Source: Bacteroidota bacterium (GTDB lineage: Bacteria; Bacteroidota; Ignavibacteria; UBA10030; SZUA-254). From it: a DNA stretch of 35,159 nucleotides. This document shows, piece by piece, positions 31,668 through 35,159 of this stretch. The stretch covers positions 1-35,159 of the forward strand of contig JASEHD010000017.1 of assembly GCA_030019075.1 (NCBI GenBank). The letters are read 5' to 3'. Positions within the stretch are counted from its first letter, which is position 1, and every line of letters begins with the position of its first letter. The position numbers were made by a program, and so were the translations under genes. The notes under the pieces are model-generated. The model saw only the letters and a program-made list of their open reading frames with translations. It searched no databases and was not told the origin of the DNA.

Positions 31668-31714
31668 AAATATGAACTTCAATAATTATCCTAATCATCT
31701 TTTTGGAGATCCCC

Positions 31715-34700
31715 ATGCGAAAAGGATTACTCATTACATTGCTTGCTTTCGGAGGAATATGTTTAACACCATCATCTACCACCTCACAAACTTGGTTACA
31801 AGATTATGCGATTAAGCGAGGCATCGAATTAAGGGAGGAGCGTGCTTTTGCTGAATCGGTCGCAATTGCTAACAACTTGCCAATCCGGGTTGAATATGAG
31901 GATGGTCCAACAATAGAACTTCAACGGATTCGAAATAACATACCAGTTTATTACAAAACAGATAATCTCACCGCTGCTCGGACAATCTCGACACACAAAG
32001 TTTGGCCCAGTGGTGGAAGTGGATATTCTTTAACAGGAGAAAACATTATTCTCGGTATTTGGGATGCTGGAAGAGTACGTCCAACCCACCAGGAGTTTGG
32101 CTCAAGAGTCATTTTCACAGAAGGCAGTGATCACTACCATGCAACTCACGTTGGTGGAACGATGATAGCTACAGGGGTAATTGGTGCAGCTAAAGGTATG
32201 TCATATCAAGGATCATTAAAATCTTACAACTGGTCTAATGATGAAGCAGAAATGGCAACTGAAGCAGCAGCCGGTTTACGCGTCTCGAATCATTCATATG
32301 GAACAATAACAGGATGGTCTTGGAATTATCGTAGCGATAATCGCTGGGCTTGGTTTGGCGATGTAAATATTAGCGAAATTGAGGATTACAAGTTCGGATT
32401 TTATTCCGACCAAGCAAAAGAATGGGATGAAATAGCTTTTAACGCACCTAATTACCTAATTGTGAAATCTGCTGGAAATGATCGCGACGAAGGTCCAAGT
32501 GGATCAACTACACACTGGGCTATAATTGGAGGAGCATGGACTTTGGTTACAGCAGCGCGTAATCGTGATGGTAATTCAGGATACGACTGTATCAGCCATA
32601 ATTCTTTGGCGAAAAATGTTCTTACTGTTGGAGCTGTGAATGACATTTTTGGCAGTTATTCGACCCCAAGTAGTGTTGTTATGTCATCCTTTAGTTGTTG
32701 GGGTCCTATCGATGATGGCAGAATAAAACCCGATATCGTAGCAAACGGGGTGGATTTATATTCCCCAATTTCAACTTCAGATATAGCGTATGGCAGGTAC
32801 AGTGGAACATCAATGTCGGCACCAAATGCATCGGGATCGGTTGGTTTACTTCTCCAGCGTCAAAACATGTTGCAAGGCACTACACCATTACGAGCATCAA
32901 CACTTAAAGCAATTATTATTAACACGGCAGATGAATCAGGGCCAAATCCCGGACCTGATTATATGTTTGGTTGGGGACTGATGAATACACTTAAAGCCAT
33001 AGATATCATGACGCAAGATAGTATTGACGGATTCGGATCGCATATCAAAGAACTGGTTCTAAATCAAGGACAAACAATTCAGTTTGATGTAGGAAGTGAT
33101 GATATTCCACTAAGAGCAACTATTTGTTGGACCGATCCAGCAGGAACACCGGTCAGTCCAGCACTTGATCCACCAAACATCATGTTGAAAAATGATATCG
33201 ATCTTCGGATCATTAAAAAAATGAATCTCCAAACATATTCGCCATGGATACTCAATCCGGCATCACCCTCTGCCGCAGCATTAACCGGAGATAATTACCG
33301 TGATAATGTCGAACAAGTTCATATTGAATCACCTGAGAGAACAGTTTACACTGTTCGAATAACACATAAAGGAACATTAACGGGTGGCTCACAAAATGTT
33401 TCATTCGTCATTAGTGGAAATGCAGTTCCGTTAGGTCCGGTTTTCGTTGCTCAACCGAATAATTTCGAATACACACTTATTCCCAGTGCAATTACTAACG
33501 ACTCTATTAAAATTAAAAACCCCGGAGATTCACTGCTATTCTTCCAAACTTTCATCCCATCACCCGAAAATAGCTGGCTCTCAATTCAAGAAAATTTTGT
33601 TACAATAGATTCACTCGACTCAGGCATGGTGCATTTCACGGTTGATCCTTCAGGACTAACTACGTGGACAGATTATGCAGGAGCAATTTCTTTCTTACAT
33701 AACGATTCAACTCAAACTCCATCTTCCGTCAATGTAGTAGTTCATGTTCTCGGACCAACGATTACTCCTAAGACTACGAGCTATCTTATTGAGATTGATT
33801 CAGGTGATGTGGCGAAGGATACATTGATAATCCGGAACGATGGATATATTCCACTTCATATCTCAATAAATGACACAGGAAAATTAACACCAACTTGGAT
33901 GACCCATGAGTTGAATATCGGAACTATCCAACCAGACGAAACTCTTAAAGTACCTCTCACATTTGGAGAGGCAACGCTTGCAATTGGTGATTATTATACT
34001 AACCTGCTGATTGAGAGTAACGATAACAAGACAGGGAATATTGAAATCCCAATCGCACTCCATGTTGGAACAAAGAGAATCACATCAGTGCAAGTTGATA
34101 ATCGTTGGAATATGGTCTCGCTTCCGGTAAAATCATTTTTGTCCTTAAAAACCGACCTGTTCCCAACAGCAACATCTCACGCATTTTTATATAACGGTAG
34201 TACTTACGTCCAAAAAAATATATTAGAAGCAGGACAAGGTTATTGGTTAAAATTTGATGATGTTCAATCGATTCCCATCGAAGGTTATGTATTAAAAGCC
34301 GATACCATCACACTATTAGGAGGTTGGAATATGATTGGCGCCTTGTCGAATAGTATCCCCACAACTGCTGTAGTATCCGAACCTGATGGTAAGATTGCTC
34401 CGTATTTCTTCGGCTATGACCGAAGCTATATCATTGCCGATAATCTTCAACCCGGGAAAGGATATTGGGTAAAAGCTAAAGAGCCGTGTGATATCATTTT
34501 GAGTGGAACTTATCCTCCGCTGTCGAAACAATTGGCAAGCCAGATATTATCAGCGTTTAATAGCATAACGTTTAGCGATGGTGAAAACAGCCAAACACTT
34601 TATTTTACTATTGATCAGGGGATAAGCATTGAAGATTTTGCGCTTCCACCCACTGCACCAGAAGGAGATTTTGATGTACGGTATAGCTCAGGACGATTCC

Positions 34701-35159
34701 TCGAAATAGCCGGAGAAAACCAAAGTGAATATCCGATCGACATCCAGACGGTTTCTTCTCTGATTAAAATAAGCTGGAACATTCGAGAATTATCAACTAC
34801 TAAATTTGTGTTACGTGATGAAGAAGGTAAAACATATCCGTTAAACGAGAATGGGAGTATCACATTACACGGAGATAATGCAGGAATAAAAACACTAAAG
34901 TTAGTAACCGAAGGAAAAAATATTCCGATGGAATATGCACTCGAACAAAATTATCCCAATCCATTCAATCCAATTACAAGGATTGAATATGCACTGCCAG
35001 TGGAGGCACACGTAACGCTGAAGGTTTACGATATTCTTGGTCGGGAAGTCGCAACTCTTGTGAACGAAATGCAAGAAGCAGGATACAAATCAGTGAGTTT
35101 TTCCGCCATAGGCGGATCCGCCTCTGGCGGAGATGCAGTGAATTTACCCAGCGGCATTT
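31715..35159 (+). CDS. secreted S8 subtilisin-like serine protease with C-terminal T9SS-type sorting domain (3' truncated by window edge)
   Basis: Open reading frame read by eye from ATG 31715 ([25 protein letters not shown]) to the window end with no stop. Triad contexts '[10 protein letters not shown]', '[10 protein letters not shown]', '[13 protein letters not shown]'; C-terminal '[56 protein letters not shown]...NLPSGI'. Confidence 0.93.
35102..35131. repeat. 30-bp double-hairpin palindromic element TCCGCC-ATA-GGCGGA/TCCGCC-TCT-GGCGGA
   Basis: Two adjacent perfect 6-bp stems with 3-nt loops (35102-35116, 35117-35131) and a central GGCGGATCCGCC palindrome. Exactly 10 codons, in frame with the protease. 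Confidence 0.8.

Follow-up and report, generated by a model that had tools for sequence, protein, structure and literature searches.

The 30 bp at positions 35102–35131 of the window, that is, of the whole stretch of 35,159 nucleotides that was analysed, very probably belong to a dispersed family of non-autonomous DNA elements, this copy having been inserted precisely at an AT-rich TY^RA site with no duplication of the target. Elements of this kind are present in many copies, differ from the corresponding empty sites by a precise length, are read mostly in one frame, prefer certain targets and are spread patchily across phyla. Judging by this patchiness and by the precision of insertion, the copies probably arise by active mobilisation, and paired changes in the outer part of the stem suggest that the hairpin is the feature that is recognised.

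The element (TCCGCCATAGGCGGATCCGCCTCTGGCGGA as one string, with no strand assigned to it or its units) consists of TCCGCCATAGGCGGA followed by TCCGCCTCTGGCGGA, which form two adjoining perfect hairpins with 6-bp stems and 3-nt loops and together encode 10 amino acids. Unit 1 (35102–35116, TCCGCC-ATA-GGCGGA) has a loop of the NNA type and unit 2 (35117–35131, TCCGCC-TCT-GGCGGA), which is unit 1 inverted, a loop of the TYN type; the layout of two 15-bp units is self-complementary, a sequence A being followed by its reverse complement. The element was delimited from the sequence, a pattern search, its DNA fold and the same 30-bp pattern in other genomes, and its units from the sequence, the pattern search and the loop consensus. 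These two units are the only exact matches to TCCGCC-N3-GGCGGA in the window; with up to two mismatches allowed, 4 sites were found there vs 0.43 expected from shuffling. As single-stranded DNA, the region of the element has a fold z of -5.2.

The host gene (31703–35158, plus strand), defined by its open reading frame and by orthologues in relatives, encodes a secreted subtilase with a T9SS tail; its frame of 1152 codons, with which the element is in frame, is open at the contig end. The subtilase (peptidase S8) domain occupies 32126–32977 of the plus strand (PF00082, E=2.5e-30), and the T9SS type A sorting domain (Por_Secre_tail), recognised by a sub-threshold stretch of TIGR04183 (protein residues 1079–1118) and by alignment with paralogues, covers 34952–35159 of the same strand, where the contig end cuts it. 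The contig stops 28 bp past the element and the last strand of the domain is missing; because of this truncation the domain scores 17.6 bits against TIGR04183, under the cut-off of 23, and a complete paralogue carrying the same kind of insert scores 44.9 bits, above it. Around the element the protein reads GYKSVSF, then the 10 extra residues, then DAVNLPSGI. The original prediction of an in-frame 30-bp double perfect hairpin in the sorting domain of a subtilase, a domain with many paralogues, agrees with the sequence, the open frame and the pattern search, and at least 150 T9SS sorting domains were found in the 3.18 Mb of this genome, an unusually large set. The contig break at 35159 falls inside this domain and was probably caused by its repetition.

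Filled and empty sites differ by exactly the element. It lies at the codon boundary TTT^GAT (F^D; 35099–35134, plus strand), which was defined from empty paralogues with TTT/TTC GAT, from flank statistics and from the same boundary in other sorting domains. The codons of the window run AGT TTT (30 bp) GAT GCA GTG AAT TTA CCC AGC, and those of a complete empty paralogue (L264) run GGA TAT AAA TCA GTT AAT TTC ^ GAT GCG AGC AAT CTC CCA AGC. It had been claimed that removal of the 30 bp restores the canonical motif, and this is borne out: the deletion leaves a 16-residue stretch that agrees with paralogues (e.g., GYKSVNFDASNLPSGV) and with three subtilase orthologues (54%, 47% and 48% identity), all of which are without the insert. 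Among 42 sorting domains sampled (own genome 39, relatives 3), exact hairpin units were found in 5 and were absent in 37; most sampled paralogues are, like the orthologues, without the element, and the difference is exactly 30 bp.

Similar comparisons, all of them between species and not between strains, were possible for unrelated proteins of other phyla. In AtpD of a Kaiserbacteria genome (L122) the element stands between TTC and AAC, where relatives run from TTC to GAT or GAC; the difference is exactly 10 codons (30 bp) without duplication, and none of the 25 aligned relatives has the element. For CysS, TsaD, Mfd and DnaG of other genomes, alignment with proteins of solved structure leaves in each case a gap of 10 residues where the element lies. 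The insertions at homologous sites of other sorting domains and in unrelated essential genes of other phyla show that the family is a DNA element and not ordinary protein sequence. Two of the AtpD relatives (L228 and L220) contain other in-frame insertions in the same loop (PSKDSGQAS and DASTDSTGSRQAGSGQGQ), which possibly belong to other repeat families, and a second unaligned insertion in CysS (SPPYQGGDQRGGQ, residues about 200–216 of the gene L111) could likewise be an in-frame repeat; PSTSSG, a further repeat family read in frame, showed no enrichment in the samples. Single 15-bp copies are more ambiguous than the 30-bp tandems. Such a copy in PepA adds a net 9 bp, SAxGG replaces two residues in two sorting domains with single units, and IRLRR of HpnC aligns with native IRARR, so that some singles may, as far as such alignments go, be native sequence or of another origin.

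In the whole genome (3.18 Mb, 226 contigs; GC about 39% in a 400-kb sample) TCCGCC-N3-GGCGGA is not single-copy, a circumstance that the original prediction had named as decisive: there are 43 exact copies, and the reversed-pattern control gave 0 copies. These 43 units and the copies in essential genes of other phyla substantiate the proposal of an interspersed element that tolerates insertion into coding DNA. In the 400-kb sample and the window, GCC-N3-GGC stems have a second length peak at exactly 6 bp (20 cases vs 3 at 5 bp), and the outer arms of the 6-bp stems are mostly TCC, with TCA, CCC, TTC and TGA also present and the opposite arm matching. Three tandem pairs account for 6 of the 43 units, and each pair interrupts a sorting domain at one and the same codon boundary. 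At the loci from the host's class, T9SS sorting domains contain 14 of the 16 distinct tandems; the insertion point is F^D/N ahead of the LPSG strand in 10 of these, NPF^N in 3 and a different position in the remaining one. The insertion boundaries in these domains are mostly TTY followed by RA codons, and the hotspot is attributed to this target preference together with tolerance; at least 150 domains per genome, each with two F^D/N (TTY^RAY) boundaries, would offer many suitable sites. In one sorting domain (L025), the double is followed by DA-SANGG-LPSG (encoded by TCTGCCAACGGTGGA), in which SANGG resembles a third unit that has decayed.

The anatomy of the family was derived from 124 doubles among the matches listed in the collection scan. 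The loop of the first unit follows the pattern NRA, with A as third base in 94%, and that of the second unit TYN, which is why the second unit is considered to be the first inverted; 31 of the 124 are perfect 30-bp palindromes. In the flanks, T is preferred at -2 and A at +2, and 25.6% of 160 distinct doubles have TTY^RA flanks vs 0.7% at random positions; the window site TTT^GAT agrees with this TY^RA preference. A symmetric TTTAAA target was rejected, as the flanks do not prolong the palindrome, and TY^RA is the safer wording. No general target duplication was seen in the 160 distinct doubles, direct repeats in the flanks being mostly at the shuffled level with a sole small excess at 7 nt (3 vs 0.14). 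All three outer pairs are kept in 10 of 15 variant units, i.e., neighbours of a perfect unit chosen by inner GCC/GGC alone, which points to the hairpin, rather than its sequence, as the thing probably conserved. Single 15-bp copies have TNA loops and flanks unlike those of doubles and may be a separate sub-kind.

Among 65 intragenic doubles located well inside open frames of at least 200 codons, 60 are read as SAxGGSAxGG, 3 as LRxRRIRLxRK and 2 as PPxADPPxAE, and this bias is most simply explained by selection against the readings that are charged or rich in proline. A precise 30-bp unit entering an AT-rich TY^RA site without target duplication would preserve the frame, and in one frame it would provide a small flexible linker, SAxGGSAxGG, likely to be tolerated in protein loops. 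The structure predicted for a complete sorting domain that carries the same insert places residues 52–61 in a loop between two strands; the strands are well predicted, and confidence in this part of the model is lowest at the insert.

The distribution of the family is wide and uneven. Forty relatives contain from 0 to 52 single units each. Of 296 genomes of the phylum, 7 contain the 30-bp tandem, each of them from the host's own class, and so do 17 of 287 Patescibacteria genomes, with up to 9 per genome; tandems of the reversed control numbered 0 in all 583 genomes. A scan of named genome contigs gave at least 118 stretches with a 30-bp tandem in many phyla, including, among the matches listed, Patescibacteria lineages, Omnitrophota, Kiritimatiellae, Lentisphaerae, Ignavibacteria, Auribacterota, Chloroflexota and others, every named match among those listed being a metagenome-assembled genome. 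The many sorting domains and the presence of Ignavibacteria among the matches suggest, tentatively, that the host of the window belongs to that class as well. Phages and plasmids were considered as vectors and rejected: 2.9 million viral contigs contained 1 match, phages and plasmids gave no convincing one, and E. coli had none.

Genes of a small GIY-YIG family are prominent among those recurring beside doubles. In the own genome, a 303-bp unit repeated in tandem (L048, contig C204, 294–957) consists of a split tRNA T-arm-like fragment and a GIY-YIG gene, the fragment being split at TTC^GAA by TCAGCC..GGCTGA-TCCGCC..GGCGGA. Another locus (L372, 1172–1891) has a 361-bp tandem unit made of the 5' half of tRNA-Ser, split in the D-loop by a double hairpin, and a GIY-YIG gene, with an intact tRNA-Ser adjoining. 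A similar array with a partial tRNA bearing a double hairpin and a small GIY-YIG gene was noticed beside an intact tRNA-Ser in a third locus (L039, 1308–2112). The three arrays look like a tRNA-linked mobile gene. The tRNA T-loop as a general target was tried and rejected, true T-arm flanks being found in 2 of 172 doubles vs a shuffled mean of 0.39 and a maximum of 3; tRNA loops are occasional insertion sites at most, and taking the element out restored no intact tRNA at the insertion point.

A survey of 123 distinct small GIY-YIG genes in 17 hairpin-bearing genomes (L399–L508) showed a tRNA of many kinds within 150 bp of 49 genes, on the same strand in 49 of 49, and these tRNA-linked small nucleases are a family in their own right. 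A hairpin lies within 200 bp of 23 of the 123 genes and is absent at that distance from the other 100. Thirteen genes have a hairpin in the 100 bp upstream, with about 3 expected from the density outside open frames (Poisson 1.3e-5, a value that overstates the case, since the genes include tandem duplicates and a number of the loci were known beforehand). Hairpin density beside the genes is 1.65 and 1.14 per kb vs 0.11 per kb farther off at the same loci. The small tRNA-linked GIY-YIG nuclease is the best candidate for the mobiliser, the link being correlative; partial copies of tRNAs also offer neutral sites for insertion.

As the likeliest of the mechanisms considered, we propose tentatively, on suggestive data, that a small tRNA-linked GIY-YIG nuclease, whose gene is often bordered by the same hairpins, cuts at or near such TY^RA sites, where the hairpin would then be copied or captured. 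Somewhat more doubtful is the broader version, in which solitary tRNA-linked GIY-YIG nucleases would drive a cross-phylum mobile element, with the 30-bp double hairpin as its minimal form, adding SAxGGSAxGG linkers and spreading horizontally to Patescibacteria, Omnitrophota, Kiritimatiellae and Ignavibacteria.

It may also be supposed that the hairpins are REP-like and are moved by a Y1 tyrosine transposase (TnpA_REP, RAYT). The size, the inverted hairpin dimers and the intragenic copies resemble REPs (PMC3733652), and Y1_Tnp genes are present in the own genome (7) and in 22 of 25 element-bearing genomes. However, none of the 7 own Y1 genes has a GCC-N3-GGC hairpin within 1.5 kb, 30 other Y1 genes are surrounded by 6 hairpins in 87 kb (in 4 of 30 loci), two genomes with 36 and 39 units (G042 and G048) have no Y1 gene, and GTAG/CGTC tags are absent from the doubles. 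Linkage to RAYT/Y1 is unsupported in the own and 25 other genomes, and we consider this explanation improbable.

Slightly less probable still is that quasi-palindromes were perfected and duplicated by template switching or slippage during replication, without a mobile element. Variable loops with perfect stems, compensated stem changes and the net 9 bp of the PepA single would suit such errors, but they hardly account for the same 6-bp stem in many phyla, the precise gain of 30 bp at TY^RA in unrelated genes and the strong patchiness; moreover, the empty sites in AtpD relatives and sorting-domain paralogues have no seed palindrome. Template switching could explain the upkeep of stems after insertion. 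That SAxGGSAxGG is simply a selected protein linker with codons palindromic by chance is highly improbable: small flexible residues do suit loops and 60 of 65 internal copies use this frame, but the other frames, the compensated stems and, above all, the intergenic copies and those in tRNA fragments rule this reading out. A sequencing or assembly artefact, suggested by the metagenomic origin of all named matches and by the position of the window copy near a contig end, is the least credible explanation, since the projects and assemblers are independent, the loops vary, and copies stand in frame and at internal positions of long contigs.

A mobile 30-bp element is our preferred reading, and it has several consequences. 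In-frame palindromic elements have so far been described as peculiar to a few lineages, e.g., Rickettsia and Wolbachia, and here a far smaller in-frame palindrome is common to distant uncultivated phyla and lies inside essential proteins. Its copies provide natural experiments on 10-residue insertions, the T9SS sorting domain, with at least 150 copies in the genome, is a natural reporter of target choice, and caution is needed, as such inserts may be misread as functional domains. The question is also raised of which enzyme moves a 30-bp hairpin. No description of the element, its DNA or its peptide was found, by sequence or by topic, in the open-access papers searched, most subscription journals being outside the scope of the search.

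RPEs, the palindromic elements known from Rickettsia, are about 100–150 bp long. Together with the Wolbachia palindromic elements, they are palindromic, occur in and between genes, in frame in conserved proteins and in RNA genes (PMC2229807, PMC10969869). The present family is likewise a dispersed palindrome found in frame in AtpD, CysS, TsaD, Mfd, DnaG and sorting domains, and also in tRNA fragments; its unit, however, is 15 or 30 bp, untagged and distributed over many phyla. RPEs of R. conorii are tagged with CGTC (PMC3733652), whereas this tetranucleotide occurs within 8 nt of the left end in 2 of 160 distinct doubles and of the right end in 0 of 160. The analogy with Rickettsia elements drawn originally therefore holds as a likeness and fails as membership, by length, end tag and host range.

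REP/BIME sequences of the GTAG and CGTC super-families are short hairpins with paired stem changes and head-to-head dimers, some of them intragenic (PMC3733652). Short hairpins, doubles made of a unit and an inverted unit, and paired stem changes are common to both, but our doubles have no GTAG/CGTC tag (GTAG stands at the hairpin foot in 1 of 160 distinct doubles on each side) and no RAYT linkage, and they are mostly intragenic in one frame. Mitochondrial double-hairpin elements and yeast GC clusters consist of GC-rich hairpins, tens of bp long, that lie in AT-rich DNA and change mainly in their loops (PMC4478555). A role of intron-encoded endonucleases has been proposed, which parallels the GIY-YIG hint obtained here. 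Two GC-rich hairpins in tandem and dispersal are shared features; those elements are organellar, mostly intergenic and have putative target duplications, whereas the copies considered here are in bacteria, lie mostly in coding DNA and show no duplication.

Bacterial MITEs such as Correia/NEMIS, ERIC and RUP reach the order of 100 bp or above, have terminal inverted repeats and are usually accompanied by a target duplication. They are non-autonomous inverted-repeat elements, some of which are fused in frame with genes (PMC2229807), and in both respects our element is similar to them. As to an autonomous relative encoding a mobilising enzyme, GIY-YIG genes bordered by hairpins were found, their enzymatic activity being putative. 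The differences are that no target duplication was seen and that 30 bp stand against the order of 100 bp or more; in our opinion, the element appears to rank among the smallest dispersed DNA elements observed to date that alter proteins.
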